The notes below the pieces were generated by a model, which was not told the DNA's origin, ran no database searches, and saw only the letters and a list, made by a program, of their open reading frames with translations. DNA of 22,847 bases from a virus: positions 1-22,847 of IMG/VR virus record IMGVR_UViG_3300033146_001971; one strand, given 5' to 3'. Shown one piece after another: positions 391 to 12,799 of the stretch; position 1 is the first letter of the stretch; each line of letters begins with the position of its first letter. The translations under genes were made by a program, and so were the position numbers.

Positions 391-660
391 GCTCACCATA
401 TAGAAACACCCTCACCACCCCCTTAGATAACATTTATCAAAATCATCAACCTCATACTCAATAACTATACACTCTATTATATACTAATCAATATACATAT
501 AATAATATATGGTCAAGTAAATAACACTAAATACTTATTCACATTACATCAGAACTAACTGGGTAAGAATCTACATACCAAGATCGAGACGCACGCTACT
601 AGCTCACTCACACGTTCATTCGCTCAGAGTCTATCAGCTCCCACGCTAAGTACAATCGAT

Positions 661-1128: not shown

Positions 1129-1155
1129 AAAGCCTGGGATTTAGTCCTGGGCTTT
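1129..1155 (+). terminator. strong hairpin, candidate terminator or RNA 3' end
   Basis: AAAGCCTGGGA (1129-1139) pairs with TCCTGGGCTTT (1145-1155) around a 5-nt loop TTTAG: 11 pairs, two of them G-T wobbles. It is followed by GTTGTGT rather than a pure T run. With no gene upstream, it may end a non-coding transcript. The next motif copy begins immediately after it. Confidence 0.5.
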
Positions 1156-1159
1156 GTTG

Positions 1160-1215
1160 TGTATAAAGTCTGCTACAAGGCTGGTGTTAGTTGCTTGAGG
1201 TTGTAGAATTTAGTT
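1160..1215 (+). repeat. copy 2 of the three-copy degenerate motif
   Basis: GTATAAAGTCTGCTACAAGGCTGGTG followed by a G-rich tail with TTGAGGTTGTAGA. It shares TATAA-AGnCT and the core CTACAAGGCnGG with copies 1 and 3 but is the most diverged. It directly follows the 1129-1155 hairpin. Confidence 0.35.
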
Positions 1216-1430: not shown

Positions 1431-1678
1431 GACAATTTTTTTAGATCAATTTTTTAGACTAATTTTTTAGACAATTTTTTTAGATCAATTTTTTAGATCA
1501 ATTTTTTAGATCAATTTTTTAGATCAATTTTTTAGACAATTTTTTTAGATCAATTTTTTAGATCAATTTTTTAGATCAATTTTTTTAGATCAATTTTTTA
1601 GATCAATTTTTTAGACAATTTTTTAGACAATTTTTTTAGACAATTTTTTAGACAATTTTTTAGACAATTTTTTTAGAC
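1431..1678 (+). repeat. tandem array of about 19 T-tract units (13 bp each)
   Basis: About 19 consecutive units of 12-14 bp. There are two main unit types, ATCAATTTTTTAG and ACAATTTTTTTAG, and one ACTAATTTTTTAG variant. Blocks of one type alternate with blocks of the other, and T-run length varies between 6 and 7. There are no coding features. Such phased A/T tracts are expected to bend DNA or melt easily. The position directly upstream of 10-bp iterons and an AT-rich gene cluster fits a replication origin, partition site or packaging site, but the sequence cannot decide between these. Confidence 0.85.
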
Positions 1679-1705
1679 CGATATTAAATACATATTGAAA
1701 AAAAA

Positions 1706-1735
1706 TATTTTAACATATTTTAACATATTTTAACA
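1706..1735 (+). repeat. three perfect 10-bp iterons TATTTTAACA
   Basis: TATTTTAACA is repeated exactly three times head to tail (1706-1715, 1716-1725, 1726-1735). The 10-bp period places each copy on the same face of the helix, as expected for a cooperative protein-binding site. It lies between the T-tract array and the first AT-rich gene. Confidence 0.75.
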
Positions 1736-1763
1736 TTTTAAATTATTTTAATCAAGAAAAAGA

Positions 1764-1776
1764 TATAATATTTGCA
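1764..1776 (+). promoter_or_regulatory. weak candidate -7 box for the 1833-2920 genes
   Basis: TATAATATTTGCA resembles the TATTATTGCA box of the leftward promoters and the Bacteroidota TAnnTTTG consensus. No TTG is found at the expected distance of about 20 nt upstream, so support is limited to one box and to position about 60 nt ahead of the first gene. Confidence 0.3.
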
Positions 1777-1832
1777 TTGTTCGATTGAGGAATATATACG
1801 AATTTTTAAAACATGTTATAAAACATAAAACT

Positions 1833-2000
1833 ATGAATACAAAATTTAATCAGATAACAAATGAAATTATTGATATTAATAATGAAAATATTAATAACAT
1901 CATTAAAGATAAAGTATATAATAATATAATTTACTATATCAATTTAATCTTAGTATCAATTTTATTAATAGGCTGGATCTATTTACTAATTCAATATTAA
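1833..2000 (+). CDS. small membrane protein, 55 aa
   Basis: ATG at 1833 opens a 55-codon frame; a TTG at 1785 would add 16 residues, but the ATG is the simpler start. The first 30 residues are polar and Asn/Ile-rich (FNQITNEIIDINNENINN). The rest is one hydrophobic segment (YYINLILVSILLIGWIYLL, about residues 34-52), consistent with a single-pass tail-anchored membrane protein. No family is recognised. It is the first of three very AT-rich plus-strand genes downstream of the repeat array and iterons. Composition is extreme, with nearly all codons ending in A or T. Confidence 0.5.
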   Translation: MNTKFNQITNEIIDINNENINNIIKDKVYNNIIYYINLILVSILLIGWIYLLIQY

Positions 2001-2045
2001 ATAAATAAATAAATAATTAAATAAATAAATAAATAAATAAATAAT
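1998..2045 (+). repeat. ATAA tetranucleotide microsatellite
   Basis: Roughly eleven copies of AAAT/ATAA, interrupted twice by ATTA, fill the space between the stop codon of the small membrane protein and the leader of the next gene. Such tracts change length by slippage and could alter spacing to the next start. Confidence 0.8.
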
Positions 2046-2067
2046 TAAACAATTAAATTTTAAAGTT

Positions 2068-2520
2068 ATGACAAACAAAACAGAAGTAAAAACAATTAAA
2101 ACAGAATCAAAAAAAGACTTACTATTTTTAGACGATTTAGATTTTAGCGAATTACAGAATTTAGTAAATAATAAGAAAAAAGTATATGCTAAAAAAGGTA
2201 GTACATATAGCAAACTATATGAATTATTAAATTTGGATTCTAAAGAGGATAAAAAAGAAATACGTAAATATGTGCAAAATTTTTTATCATCTTATAGTAT
2301 AGATATTAGTAATACTATAATGAGTAATGCTAAAAATGTTAAAAGTTTAAATAAAGAATTAGAATCTTTATTTAAAAATATTAAATTAAATTTTAATAAA
2401 GATTCTAAATATAAAAATGTTGAATTTAATCAAGTCTTTGAACATACTAATAATATGCAGGATTTAGTAAATAATTTCAATATACAAGACTTCAAAGCTA
2501 TACGTAAATTTTTAAAATAA
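2068..2520 (+). CDS. hypothetical Lys/Asn-rich protein, 150 aa
   Basis: ATG at 2068 follows the A/T-rich leader TTTTAAAGTT with no Shine-Dalgarno sequence, as is usual in Bacteroidota. The protein is soluble and mainly helical, rich in Lys, Asn, Leu and Ser. It has an acidic patch (LLFLDDLDFSEL, residues 18-29) followed by a basic one (NNKKKVYAKKGS, residues 34-45), then helices through the C terminus (NIQDFKAIRKFLK). No catalytic motif or known domain is recognised. Codon choice is extremely A/T-biased compared with the late genes. It is followed by a 14-bp hairpin and then another unknown gene of similar composition, so these may form one early unit. Confidence 0.7.
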   Translation: MTNKTEVKTIKTESKKDLLFLDDLDFSELQNLVNNKKKVYAKKGSTYSKLYELLNLDSKEDKKEIRKYVQNFLSSYSIDISNTIMSNAKNVKSLNKELESLFKNIKLNFNKDSKYKNVEFNQVFEHTNNMQDLVNNFNIQDFKAIRKFLK

Positions 2521-2529
2521 TAATCACTT

Positions 2530-2563
2530 TAATAGCTATCTAATTAATTTTAGATAGCTATTA
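2530..2563 (+). terminator. perfect 14-bp inverted repeat between two genes
   Basis: TAATAGCTATCTAA (2530-2543) is the exact reverse complement of TTAGATAGCTATTA (2550-2563), with a 6-nt loop TTAATT. It lies between the stop at 2520 and the ATG at 2579. The AT-rich stem and lack of a strong T run make it a partial terminator or an RNA-processing/stability hairpin rather than a certain terminator. Confidence 0.5.
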
Positions 2564-2578
2564 TTAAAAATCTAAAAA

Positions 2579-2920
2579 ATGTTATATAAAGTAGTATTAA
2601 AAGATAAATACAATAGTATTCATATACTTAATGATAAAGCAATAGAGCGTAAAAAAGAAATAGCACAAACTTTTTTAATAGATATTAAACAAGGTAACTA
2701 TGATAAATATCTAACAAAACAAAAATTAGATAATTTACTATATACTAAAAAGGGTTTAATAAAAGATTTTTCTTTTTTAAAATATTCAACTGTAAAAGAT
2801 TTCAAGAATTTAAAAAAATTAATTTCTTTTATTAGATTAGTTTATAAAGCTAATCAAACAAAAAACAATTTTACTCAAAAAGGTATTGAATATATAAATG
2901 ATAAGGTATTGAATATATAA
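2579..2920 (+). CDS. hypothetical Lys-rich protein, 113 aa
   Basis: ATG at 2579 follows an A-rich leader (AAAAATCTAAAAA). The product is basic and predicted helical (KAIERKKEIAQTFLIDIKQGNYDKYL, then KDFKNLKKLISFIRLVYKAN). It has no recognisable catalytic or binding motif. Its 3' end contains a direct DNA repeat: AAGGTATTGAATATATAA occurs at 2880-2897 and again at 2903-2920, the second copy including the stop codon. That suggests the C terminus grew by a local duplication. A perfect 30-bp inverted repeat follows 9 nt after the stop. The extremely AT-rich composition matches the two preceding genes. Confidence 0.65.
   Translation: MLYKVVLKDKYNSIHILNDKAIERKKEIAQTFLIDIKQGNYDKYLTKQKLDNLLYTKKGLIKDFSFLKYSTVKDFKNLKKLISFIRLVYKANQTKNNFTQKGIEYINDKVLNI
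2880..2920 (+). repeat. 18-bp direct repeat at the gene's 3' end
   Basis: AAGGTATTGAATATATAA appears at 2880-2897 and 2903-2920, separated by 5 nt. In the first copy the TAA is out of frame; in the second it is the stop codon of the upstream gene. Confidence 0.8.
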
Positions 2921-2929
2921 AAGTAATAA

Positions 2930-2998
2930 TATATATAATAAACAATAGATAATAAATAAATTAACCCCTTATTTATTATCTATTGTTTATTATATATA
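2930..2998. terminator. perfect 30-bp inverted repeat, probable bidirectional terminator
   Basis: Positions 2930-2959 are exactly the reverse complement of 2969-2998, with a 9-nt loop ATTAACCCC. All 30 pairs match. It lies between the end of the rightward genes (2920) and the end of the leftward operon (3357), where a two-way terminator would be expected. The arms are almost pure A/T, so a cruciform or an RNase III-type substrate is also possible. Confidence 0.65.
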
Positions 2999-3356
2999 AG
3001 ATACTAAGCGCCCCTCCGACTGCGCCAGGTTTTATCTCTCGCCCACAGAAATGTTCACTCTCTGAAATAATTAAACTCCGAATTCCGAATCTCAAGAACG
3101 ACCCCCCTCTGATCTCACCCGCTAAGACCCATTACAAAAGAGCCCCTAAAAAATAATATACCACAACATTTTTCATACCCCCTATCTTAAGCGTTATCAG
3201 TTCACACAACAAGGGCAGAGGAAATGTCGAAACCCCTGCCCATCTAGCCTGAAAAATGTTTAATTAAAAACTGATGTGGAGATAATGTTAACCTTATATA
3301 AAATTACCCCTTGCATGAAAAGAACTACTATCAGAACTAGATCGTCGTTGTAATAT
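2999..3356. other. convergent intergenic region, no gene seen
   Basis: No frame of useful length exists on either strand. The plus strand is C-rich (several CCCC runs), so the minus strand, which is the continuation of the leftward operon's transcript, is G-rich. It contains one clear hairpin (3213-3241). It may be a long 3' untranslated region or a non-coding RNA. Confidence 0.5.
3213..3241 (-). terminator. hairpin downstream of the leftward operon
   Basis: GGGCAGAGG (3213-3221) pairs with CCCCTGCCC ending at 3241, eight pairs with one internal mismatch. Read leftward it is followed by TTGTTGT. It lies about 115 nt after the last leftward stop codon at 3357 and is the best terminator candidate for that operon. 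Confidence 0.45.
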
Positions 3357-4822: not shown

Positions 4823-4853
4823 CAATAATAATATATTTAATTCTTCGGTGCAA
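4823..4853 (-). promoter_or_regulatory. promoter, TTGCAC ... TATTATTGCA
   Basis: Read on the minus strand: TTGCAC, then TATTATTGCA, with exactly 20 nt between TTG (4851-4853) and TA (box 4823-4830). This matches the Bacteroidota -33/-7 layout and is repeated with the same spacing at 6041, 7481 and 8287. Transcription would begin near 4816, about 18 nt ahead of the ATG at 4798. The -33 box lies beside the end of the upstream gene. Confidence 0.75.
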
Positions 4854-6908: not shown

Positions 6909-7262
6909 TTAGTCAGCCTTCTTAGCTGATTTCTTTTTTGTTACTTTCTTAGTAGAAGTTTTACCTTCTTTCTTAGTAGAAGTTTTACCTTCTTTCTTAG
7001 TAGAAGTTTTACCTTCTTTCTTAGCAACTTTCTCAGCTCTTTTCTCAGAACGAGTTTTGTTGCCTTTTTTCTTGTCAATTGCATCATCATGAGCAAGTGA
7101 AGCAGCTTTATAATTTTTAGTTAATTTCTTTAGCACTGTAACAGCTTTTCTAGCTTGTTTTCCACCTTTCTTGCTTCCATCCATAGATTTGTAGTGAGCA
7201 ATTTTAAATTCTTGTACTAATCCTTCGATTGCATCGAATTCTTTCTGTAATCCCTTTGACAT
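6909..7262 (-). CDS. histone H1/Hc1-like DNA-binding protein
   Basis: A 117-residue basic protein. The N-terminal half (to about residue 56) is helical and contains GSKKGGKQARKAVTVLKKL (29-47), which resembles the GNKAAGTRARKA signature of Hc1-family histone H1-like proteins of Bacteroidota and Chlamydiae. The C-terminal half is a Lys/Ala/Thr tail with three exact copies of EGKTSTKK (83-106) followed by VTKKKSAKKAD, like the disordered DNA-compacting tails of H1 proteins. It probably coats or condenses phage or host DNA. It has its own promoter (7481-7511), a long leader of about 210 nt and its own terminator. The family call rests on pattern only. Confidence 0.7.
   Translation of the reverse strand: MSKGLQKEFDAIEGLVQEFKIAHYKSMDGSKKGGKQARKAVTVLKKLTKNYKAASLAHDDAIDKKKGNKTRSEKRAEKVAKKEGKTSTKKEGKTSTKKEGKTSTKKVTKKKSAKKAD
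6945..7016 (-). repeat. three 24-bp in-frame repeats encoding EGKTSTKK
   Basis: Three consecutive 24-bp units, essentially identical at DNA level, encode the tail repeat of the H1-like protein. Identity at nucleotide level indicates recent expansion; copy number may vary between relatives. Confidence 0.85.
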
Positions 7263-9317: not shown

Positions 9318-10367
9318 ATGGCTAAAAAATTAAAGGTATTAGGTATATCAGCGGGAAATGGGGTTTCATTGTACCCCTTTGAAAAAGATCCAAGATATGA
9401 AGTAATAGGGAACATAGAAGGTCGTTCTAAATTCTTTGTTGATAAGGTTAAAACCGCCCAGTGGGACTTAAACTTCAAATCAACCATGTATACCACGTTC
9501 AAACCAAAGTTCTCAAGATTTAAACCAGACATTATCGTGGGTAACCCAAATTGCGGGGCATCATCTGTACTTGCATTATCGAGGGCTAAGAAATTTTCTG
9601 ATCCCAGGGACGACGAATCTGTTAATGCTTTTTTAAAGAAGACTAAACAGTATGAGCCTAAGATCTTCATAATGGAGAACCTACCTAAATTCTTAGATAT
9701 AATAGATTATGAGTATCTAACTGAGTACTTTGATAAATATAAATTAGAGTTCATCATTGATTCAGTAGCTATCTTTGGTAACTCACAAAAAACACGTAAA
9801 AGATTAGTATTGGTAGGAGTATTAAAAACTATTAAATTGGTAAATTCTATTAGTGGTGTATTATACTCTCTAGAATTGGATAAAACCATACTAAATTATA
9901 AAGAATTGTTTGAACATAACCTACCAAATTATAAGGGGGGAGGTCATATGGACTTCCATGAGGGCCCACATACTGAAATAGCTATACATGGGGGTAGAAA
10001 GATGTCACTAGAAGATATACAACAAGAGTGGGTAAGTAAAAGAGTAAATGACCGTAGATGGTTAACCCCCGAATATAACTTCTCTACCGCACCGGGGGTT
10101 TGGAGAGTAATGCTAGAAGATTATCCACCAACAGTAAGAGCAACTACCAGACAGTTTTCTCCTGCGGGATTCCCACTAAGCCCAAGATCATTAGCAATAA
10201 TACAGGGAGTGCCCGAAGATTTTAAATTATATTCAGGAGAACAACACAATATTGGTTATTATATTAACAAGGCAAGAGTAACTGTAACTAAGACTCCACC
10301 TTATGACATTAGTTATGTATTAAAAGAAATAATAGAAGAAGTATGGGAAGGAATACAAAGAAAATAG
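9318..10367 (+). CDS. C5-cytosine DNA methyltransferase, divergent
   Basis: Transfers a methyl group from S-adenosylmethionine to carbon 5 of cytosine in DNA. Order of motifs: GISAGNGVSLYPFE (9-22, motif I), DIIVGNPNCGASS (71-83, motif IV with the likely catalytic Cys79), FIMENLPKFL (117-126, motif VI ENL), NSQKTRKRLVLVG (155-167, motif VIII QxRxR), then a recognition region, and PLSPRSLAIIQGVPEDF plus IGYYINKARV (motifs IX/X). Motif IV reads NPNC instead of the usual PPC, so the residue before the nucleophile is Asn. The gene opens the rightward late block and overlaps the terminase by 25 nt; no restriction endonuclease lies beside it. A likely role is protecting phage DNA or marking it near packaging. 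Confidence 0.8.
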   Translation: MAKKLKVLGISAGNGVSLYPFEKDPRYEVIGNIEGRSKFFVDKVKTAQWDLNFKSTMYTTFKPKFSRFKPDIIVGNPNCGASSVLALSRAKKFSDPRDDESVNAFLKKTKQYEPKIFIMENLPKFLDIIDYEYLTEYFDKYKLEFIIDSVAIFGNSQKTRKRLVLVGVLKTIKLVNSISGVLYSLELDKTILNYKELFEHNLPNYKGGGHMDFHEGPHTEIAIHGGRKMSLEDIQQEWVSKRVNDRRWLTPEYNFSTAPGVWRVMLEDYPPTVRATTRQFSPAGFPLSPRSLAIIQGVPEDFKLYSGEQHNIGYYINKARVTVTKTPPYDISYVLKEIIEEVWEGIQRK

Positions 10368-12799
10368 AACCATTTGATTTATCACCTAAACAAGTAAAAG
10401 AATTGGCTAAAGTAGCAAGAAGCCCTTTCTTCTTCAGTTTGTTTATATACGTAGTCAATCCAATCCTGGGTAAAGTGCCATTTAAACTATACCCATATCA
10501 AGTCTCTGTACTAAGGGAATTTGTAAGGAATCAATTTAATATTGTACTAAAAGGTAGGCAGATGGGTCTTACTGAATTAATAGCCATGTATTCCTTATGG
10601 CTTGCAATGTACCATCCAAATAAGAACGTACAGATAATCTCACTGAAAGATAAGGTTGCTAAACGTTTAATGCGTAGGATTAAATATATGTATAGGAATC
10701 TACCTGATCATCTACAGGTTCCCATTATTAATGGTAGAAGGGGAGAATATGGTTGCGTAACTGAGGATACTAAATTGGTAGGCCTGAATGGGGATTTTAA
10801 CATTGGTGATATAACACCTAAAACCAGGGGGATAAATGATATATCACATCTTAACGTAAGAGTACTTACACATGACGGAACATTTGAGAAAGTATTAACT
10901 ACAATAAACAAGGGTATTTTAGAAACATATGAAATAGTCAATAATCGGGGTAATACCATTAGGTGTACTCCCAATCATCGCATGTATACTGTAGAAGGTT
11001 GGAAAGAAGTATCTGAAATATTAGAAAGGGACCTAACAACTATATTCTGGAATACCGATTATCTCAATGGAGTAGAACCGCCAACTACTGAATCTAATAA
11101 AGAGGAGATAATAAGAGAAACCAAATTCAAAAATTACTATGTATCCAACACTGGTTTTGTATATACCAAGAAATGGCTAAAAAGGAGATCACCAGGTAAG
11201 TTAATAAAGATGACATTGAGGGACCAGGGACACCTTAGGGCTAGATTTAAAATTGGTGGCAAAGGAGTATTCTACACTGTACATAGATTAGTATGGGAAA
11301 CTTTCATGGGACCCATACCAGATGGTTATGTAATAGATCATATCGATTGTAATATGCACAATAACGATATAAACAATCTGCAATGTGTAACATACGGTAG
11401 GAATACCTCTAGAGCACATCAATATAATAGATCAATGAAAAACACCAATTATAGGTTAGAAGCTATAGAACTTCAAGATCTTGGTATAATAAAGGATATT
11501 GACAATCCAACTGGATATGGTTCGGGCCCTAAAATACTAAACAGACTCAATGGTGAAATCACAACTAAGGAGGTAAGCCAATATAGGAGGGGTACTAGAG
11601 CTTCACACATATACACATCTAAAGTAGAATTAGTAAACATATCTCAGGAAATGATAGTTGATATGGAGGTAGAAAATAGCCATTCATATATAACTAAATC
11701 TGATTACATAAATCATAACACCGCCCAAGAGATGGAGTTCTCAAATGGTTCTACTATAATAAGTATACCAACTACAGAAGATGCGGGTCGTTCTGAAGCT
11801 GTAACCCTCTTAATATTAGATGAAGCTGCTATGCTCCGATTTGCTGATGAAATTTGGGCAGCAGCATTACCAACATTATCAACTGGGGGATCTGCTATTA
11901 TGAACAGTACGCCATATGGTATCGGTAATTTATACCATAAAACATGGGTAAATGCAATAGCGGGAAGATCTAACGGGTTTATGCCTATTAGATTACACTG
12001 GAACATGCACCCAGACAGGGGCTTAGATTGGTACCGTAAAATGGCCCAAGCACTTGGACCAAGAAGAACTGCCCAGGAAATAGACGGTGACTTCTTATCA
12101 TCGGGATTTAACGTATTTGACCTAACAGAGATAAAAGTAATCGAAGAAATGCTATCAGAGGTTAGAGTACTTAAAACAAGATTCAACAGTAAACTACGTA
12201 TTACGGCATTACCACGTAAAGATAGAAGATATACAATTGGAGCGGATATTGCATCGGGTAGGGCTAGTGACTATTCTGCATTCTCAATCATGGATCAATA
12301 TGGGAATGAAGTTGCATACTTTAAGGGCCGGCTACCAGTAGATAGGTTTGCTGATTTACTTATGGAATATGGTAAAATGTATAATATGGCACTTTTAGCA
12401 CCAGAGGCTAATGATATTGGTATGGCGGTTGTATCTAAAATACAAGAATCGGGTTATACTAATCTATATTATACTGAGGATATGTTAAGGGAGAAAGGCA
12501 AACGTAAAAAGAAGAAACTATCCGTACCTGGTTGGTTAACCACTAAAAAGAATAGGCCAGTAATCATCGATGTTCTTTCAGAAGATATAAGAAATGATGA
12601 GGTTGATATAATTAACCCATTCTTCTGTGAGGAAGCATATACATTTATCTATGACTCTTCTAATAGGCCGACAGCACTTGGTAAAGGATCTACTTCTGAG
12701 GGTGAAGATACATATACTGATGATAGTATAATGGCTACAGCAATAACCAATTACGTCCGTAAGATTAATAAAGTTAACATAATTACAGCTCCAGTATAG
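10343..12799 (+). CDS. terL: terminase large subunit with in-frame intein
   Basis: ATPase and nuclease that cuts concatemers and drives DNA into the prohead. Of 818 codons, 138-459 are an intein, leaving a mature protein of 496 aa, normal for the family. ATPase signals: deviant Walker A KGRQMGLTE (70-78), Walker B LLILDEA (489-495) and coupling motif NSTPYGIG (521-528). The C-terminal RNase H-like nuclease has GADIASGRASDYSAF (633-647, Asp635), LAPEAND (685-691, Glu688) and TDDSIMATA (792-800, Asp793/794). The start lies inside the methyltransferase gene and the portal follows 39 nt later. No small terminase subunit is recognised in the window. Confidence 0.93.
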   Translation: MGRNTKKIEPFDLSPKQVKELAKVARSPFFFSLFIYVVNPILGKVPFKLYPYQVSVLREFVRNQFNIVLKGRQMGLTELIAMYSLWLAMYHPNKNVQIISLKDKVAKRLMRRIKYMYRNLPDHLQVPIINGRRGEYGCVTEDTKLVGLNGDFNIGDITPKTRGINDISHLNVRVLTHDGTFEKVLTTINKGILETYEIVNNRGNTIRCTPNHRMYTVEGWKEVSEILERDLTTIFWNTDYLNGVEPPTTESNKEEIIRETKFKNYYVSNTGFVYTKKWLKRRSPGKLIKMTLRDQGHLRARFKIGGKGVFYTVHRLVWETFMGPIPDGYVIDHIDCNMHNNDINNLQCVTYGRNTSRAHQYNRSMKNTNYRLEAIELQDLGIIKDIDNPTGYGSGPKILNRLNGEITTKEVSQYRRGTRASHIYTSKVELVNISQEMIVDMEVENSHSYITKSDYINHNTAQEMEFSNGSTIISIPTTEDAGRSEAVTLLILDEAAMLRFADEIWAAALPTLSTGGSAIMNSTPYGIGNLYHKTWVNAIAGRSNGFMPIRLHWNMHPDRGLDWYRKMAQALGPRRTAQEIDGDFLSSGFNVFDLTEIKVIEEMLSEVRVLKTRFNSKLRITALPRKDRRYTIGADIASGRASDYSAFSIMDQYGNEVAYFKGRLPVDRFADLLMEYGKMYNMALLAPEANDIGMAVVSKIQESGYTNLYYTEDMLREKGKRKKKKLSVPGWLTTKKNRPVIIDVLSEDIRNDEVDIINPFFCEEAYTFIYDSSNRPTALGKGSTSEGEDTYTDDSIMATAITNYVRKINKVNIITAPV
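10754..11719 (+). mobile_element. HNH-endonuclease intein inside terminase
   Basis: Codons 138-459 (322 aa) have every mark of a self-splicing intein. It starts with Cys (CVTEDTKLVG, block A), has block B GNTIRCTPNHRMYT with the TxxH motif, block F MIVDMEVENSHSYI, and ends YINHN followed by Thr (block G, His-Asn then a Thr +1). The middle carries a homing endonuclease of the HNH type, not LAGLIDADG. A NUMOD4-like YYVSNTGFVYT (266-276) precedes VHRLVWETF and IDHIDCNMHNNDINNLQCVT (331-350). Insertion lies between Walker A and Walker B of the ATPase, a conserved site where inteins persist. Confidence 0.9.

Follow-up and report, generated by a model that had tools for sequence, protein, structure and literature searches.

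What do two adjoining arrays of short repeats do directly before a block of AT-rich genes in a virus genome, and does one answer serve for both? The initial annotation proposed a phage replication origin, partition site or packaging site. The window (that is, the whole stretch of DNA analysed here) is a complete virus record of 22,847 bases and is itself a genome fragment. Protein domain searches identify its right part as a tailed-phage head block, in which the gene for a C5 cytosine methyltransferase (9318) is followed by that for a large terminase (10343), which contains an intein/HNH insertion; the genes for portal (12839), the head protease (14327) and the major capsid protein (16281) come next. 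The block to the left of the head block consists of small minus-strand genes, including one for a dUTPase. The far left holds a non-coding region (391–1832) that ends in the repeats and is followed by three AT-rich genes. The first part of this region (391–1429) has approximately 34% GC and lacks any ATG-initiated ORF of at least 50 aa; a structured RNA in 540–1440 was considered and rejected, as a folding signal was absent on both strands and no Rfam match was found. That the repeats directly precede AT-rich genes was borne out, given a first ATG at 1833 and 16–17% GC over 1501–3000 against 34% for the contig. The plus-strand ORFs of this block are found at 1833–2000 (55 aa, with a hydrophobic C-terminal half and no match in a Pfam search), 2068–2520 (150 aa) and 2579–2920 (113 aa), and are followed by a perfect inverted repeat of 30 bp with a 9-nt loop (2930–2998) that is a probable terminator of the AT-rich operon.

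The first tier of repeats is a plus-strand array of tandem T6–7 units of 12–14 bp (consensus AGATCAATTTTTT / AGACAATTTTTTT) spanning 1430–1674, for which the earlier estimate of about 19 units proves to be exactly 19 when each T-tract is read. Tandem Repeats Finder calls a 13-bp period with 18.5 copies over 1437–1673 (score 375), together with the adjoining 10-bp array. The units comprise nine AGATCAATTTTTT, one with T7 (14 bp), one AGACTAATTTTTT, five AGACAATTTTTTT and three AGACAATTTTTT (12 bp); described initially as two alternating types, they do not alternate, and the AGAC type fills the 3′ end of the array. This run of T-tracts is far beyond chance, with the array length being that of a metagenome assembly. 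The second tier consists of three perfect copies of TATTTTAACA on the plus strand (1706–1715, 1716–1725 and 1726–1735) at exact 10-bp steps, just as first described. Helical phasing, previously attributed to the region, holds for these 10-bp repeats and fails for the 13-bp units, the tract centres of which give a vector of 0.04 at 10.5 bp and 0.92 at 13 bp. As the tract centres cancel at 10.5 bp (a 13-bp step being far off a whole helical turn), the array should give no net curvature, and DNA bending by the 13-bp array was rejected on this basis.

Relatives gathered through capsid and portal searches (approximately 42 viral contigs, plus the human-gut records MT121964 and MT835790) place the repeats in a wider context. 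The locus is covered in twelve of these, always with the same order of features at the same place: a long non-coding stretch (usually GC-richer), a sudden A/T-tract leader, a TAnnTTTG box in nearly all and then small AT-rich genes, with a protein of around 110–170 residues, often a small hydrophobic protein, opposed genes and the methyltransferase further downstream, such that the locus lies 3–8 kb upstream of the methyltransferase/TerL genes. The counterparts of the 391–1429 stretch are gaps with the same synteny, in which position is kept and sequence is not. The small proteins at the locus form one family (a profile built without the G027 member recovered it at E=4e-18), for which Pfam, PHROGs, PDB sequence and fold searches gave no match and which two-member queries found in no record of the phage collection beyond this group; the G009 member is modelled as helical (pLDDT 72), and fold comparison gave no significant match for it. 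The window ORF at 2068–2520 is the positional counterpart of this family, agreeing in position and size only (hhalign probability 0.2%).

The 13-bp array itself is not part of this shared arrangement. None of 15 relatives carries it with up to three mismatches allowed, the outcome that the initial annotation had itself named as counting against its proposal, and no other IMG/VR contig contains even a three-unit stretch of it; the relatives covering the locus, which include no near relative of this phage, have different sequence at the array position. MT121964 and MT835790 are the two closest relatives of each other in which the locus is covered: their identity is 85% over the A/T leader and box but only 44% over the spacer next to it, where one of the two has 16-bp repeats. 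Given that the array is absent from the relatives and that the spacer is poorly conserved beside a conserved leader and box, the array appears to sit in a fast-changing spacer next to a conserved promoter. The best reading of these sequences is that it arose by tandem expansion within a variable spacer in this lineage; the array is probably dispensable, and may aid melting, extend the A/T-rich upstream region, carry protein sites or do none of these. The last option, in which the array is a neutral slippage satellite without function beside an ordinary promoter, is possible though doubtful, and is compatible with the explanation that we favour below for the 10-bp repeats. It would account for the absence of the array from relatives, for the different tandem repeats at counterpart positions (20-bp A/T units in G026, 16 bp in MT835790 and 27 bp in G028) and for the spacer differing more between MT121964 and MT835790 than any other part does. 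It sits less easily with a unit length kept at 12–14 bp with T6–7 throughout, with an A/T-tract density upstream of the box that is a property common to the phage family, and with a similar 13-bp T6 array in an unrelated phage.

The conserved box directs attention to transcription. In the parts of two studies drawn on here, sigma-A (sigma-ABfr) promoters of Bacteroidota are described as carrying TAnnTTTG at -7 (PMC7366714, PMC9723704), and a -33 TTTG is described as not identified in F. johnsoniae (PMC7366714), which makes it weakly defining. Of 11 relatives examined, 10 carry an exact TAnnTTTG ahead of the first AT-rich gene, boxes having been picked by position, and the counterpart of this motif in the window is a -7-like box on the plus strand (AATATTTG, 1767–1774; TAnnTTTG with A for the first T). 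The relatives thereby resemble the promoters described in those parts in box sequence, AT-rich upstream region and a gene immediately downstream, whereas the window departs from them in its own form of the box and in the absence of a clear match to a -33 TTTG upstream of 1767; the window also adds a 10-bp repeated upstream element, which those parts do not mention for sigma-A promoters (PMC7366714, PMC9723704).

The distance between element and box also agrees between the window and one relative. In the window, the last TTTTAACA ends at 1735, 31 nt before the box, and A/T tracts upstream of the putative core promoter lie at approximately 10-bp steps in register with it. The TATTTTAACA repeats alone are too short for a judgement on chance and are conserved in one relative: G014, the only other locus-covering genome with the exact 10-bp element, has two TTTTAACA at 10-bp spacing that end 31 nt before its box, matching the gap in the window. 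More generally, an A/T tract centred 28 nt upstream of the box is found at 9 of 10 loci against 2.8 expected (family-wise 0.004), and A/T tracts align to the box at 10-bp steps (p=0.006), with phasing confined to the proximal 62 nt; when all A/T tracts of the relatives were considered over 110 nt, no significant 10.5-bp phasing emerged.

The same association recurs beyond this phage group. In IMG/VR, 27 stretches were found to contain three phased copies; after removal of similar stretches, TAnnTTTG occurs within a narrow interval at 10 of 19 distinct loci, against 1.6 expected. In the Bacteroidales genome G031, a pair of copies lies upstream of TAnnTTTG at 14 places, mostly at one fixed gap (backward control, 0). 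Across 297 Bacteroidota genomes the element precedes TAnnTTTG at 23 places compared with 2 in the control, these matches being concentrated in one Bacteroidales genome with small absolute numbers outside it. The TGTTAAAA orientation does so at 8 places compared with 0 in the control (148 genomes), with a gap of 25–26 nt in 10 of 12 cases treated as independent. For the TTTTAACA orientation, gaps cluster near 11, 21, 31–32 and 42 nt in a tally of which the pattern allowed up to 42 nt and into which the window locus was entered as 30 rather than its true value of 31. That the 10-bp repeats recur at a fixed distance upstream of TAnnTTTG, in Bacteroidota and unrelated viruses alike, argues for a promoter element, and the pattern is the one expected of an upstream element in helical phase. 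An incomplete literature search found no published account of a phased TTTTAACA element in Bacteroidota.

Two further arrangements were seen during these scans. In G069 (contig 21, ~102245–102345) and G150 (contig 72, ~12583–12683), the 10-bp element is flanked on both sides by TAnnTTTG boxes that point away from each other, as though it served two promoters at once. Most triple-repeat matches in bacterial genome contigs come from two Mucilaginibacter genomes and were set aside as promoter evidence, as they are copies of one interspersed repeat family; in these genomes (L106–L185; Mucilaginibacter lappiensis and Mucilaginibacter sp. OK268), TTTTAACACTTTTTAACAAATTTTAACA occurs in dozens of interspersed repeats, each ~150 bp or longer, which constitute a possible mobile repeat family.

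We therefore consider it quite likely that the region comprises the promoter and upstream control region of an AT-rich operon conserved in position, with TATTTTAACA as a phased upstream element and the array as a lineage-specific expansion. Upstream of a core promoter, A/T tracts that recur once per helical turn strengthen the binding of polymerase, both by contact with its alpha subunit and by curving the DNA. By analogy, the three TATTTTAACA repeats would form a phased A/T-tract element in helical register with the box at 1767–1774 and, together with the tracts between repeats and box, a one-turn A/T-tract series; the element may help RNA polymerase to bind through alpha-CTD contact, DNA bending or both, and the 13-bp array would contribute 245 bp of T-tracts further upstream. 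The phage family is probably one of tailed phages infecting Bacteroidota, a host assignment that follows from promoter style only. The -7 box is the main known feature of Bacteroidota promoters. If our reading is correct, a tandem 10-bp TTTTAACA/TGTTAAAA element at fixed distance from the box would be a second sequence feature governing how strong a Bacteroidota promoter is, in hosts and their viruses alike, and the locus would mark a conserved control region of a phage group that is mostly known from metagenomes. Parallels exist in UP elements and phased A-tracts, including the T-tract/A-box of the Helicobacter pylori sabA promoter, in which T-tract length shifts the upstream register (PMC4081817): these share with the window one-turn A/T steps in register with a core promoter and, for sabA, a repeat tract prone to length change, whereas the window has tandem TTTTAACA at a fixed distance to a Bacteroidota box and also carries a 13-bp array of 19 units that does not keep helical phase (PMC4081817).

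Could the region instead start replication, with the 13-bp units serving as an unwinding element and the 10-bp repeats or DnaA-like boxes binding an initiator? The non-coding stretch of the window contains two exact matches to DnaA-box-like sequences, TTATTCACA at 535–543 (plus strand) and TTATACACA at 1158–1166 (minus strand), and the array sequence GATCAATTTTTTA is one that we take to resemble the oriC 13-mer. The AT-rich 13-mers of oriC and plasmid RK2 are unwinding elements and, like the window array, 13-bp AT-rich direct repeats; the window differs in having 19 units, compared with three in oriC, in lacking conserved initiator sites and in the absence of its array from relatives (PMC5043065). 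The DnaA-like boxes share this restriction, numbering two in the window and none in the counterpart regions of 11 relatives, and a DnaA-type origin common to the family was rejected because they are not conserved. Nucleotide composition speaks on both sides: MT121964 and G002 are almost unipolar, and in both the locus falls within the short interval over which GC skew turns, yet the skew minimum, at which the initial annotation had suggested the array might lie, coincides in three of four long relatives with the methyltransferase start, 3–7 kb from the locus, a position confounded with gene direction. A 13-bp T6 array near the terminase genes of an unrelated phage would also suit an origin, but the neighbouring ORFs of the contig, which is a fragment, gave no match, and none of them was recognised as an initiator gene. 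Overall, we regard a replication origin as unlikely.

The array in that unrelated phage merits description in its own right. Three contigs carry a 13-bp array of AGAAAAATTTTTT at contig ends (L228, 1–127; L235, 13812–13966; L231, 1–136), approximately 200 bp upstream of the ORF that opens a portal/TerL block, and have TTTTTTAGA in common with the window unit; one unrelated phage contig of 64.7 kb has a 13-bp T6 array at both of its ends, immediately ahead of the ORFs that include portal and TerL. Such a placement beside the portal/TerL block, and a long non-coding region towards the end of the genome that holds the terminase, would suit a packaging (pac) site, yet the terminase gene of the window is ~9 kb away, beyond an opposed gene block. 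For partition, ParA/ParB were absent among the window proteins scanned (a subset of the proteins encoded on this fragment), and the lack of conservation of the array argues against either function, leaving a packaging or partition site highly improbable. A broader proposal is that arrays of T6 tracts spaced at 13 bp recur among phages, having arisen independently in at least two groups, and that they open the duplex where replication or packaging starts, the 10-bp repeats being the part that binds protein; we hold this to be quite unlikely. An origin or packaging role is accordingly not favoured for the non-coding stretch or for such arrays, and what survives of the special phage locus first suggested is a regulatory region of conserved position, the array itself finding no support as an origin, partition or packaging site.

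Several features elsewhere in the window were recorded alongside this locus. The large terminase gene (10343–12799) contains an in-frame intein with an HNH endonuclease (PF14890, PF13392), and relatives vary in whether they carry an insertion at this place. The sequence TATTATTGCA occurs at 4830, 6048, 7488 and 8294, in each case intergenic and on the minus strand and in three of four cases shortly upstream of a minus-strand start codon; these repeats apparently represent a second promoter class of this phage. Within the minus-strand ORF at 6909–7262, which encodes a small basic protein with no match in a Pfam search, 24-bp coding repeats (6944–7058) yield a Lys-rich histone-like tail (GKTSTKKE). 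Finally, a hairpin followed by GGGCTTT(G/A)TTGTG is found in the window (1129–1165) and in L045 (~805–850) and L051 (~3150–3190), apparently as a recurrent terminator in this phage group.
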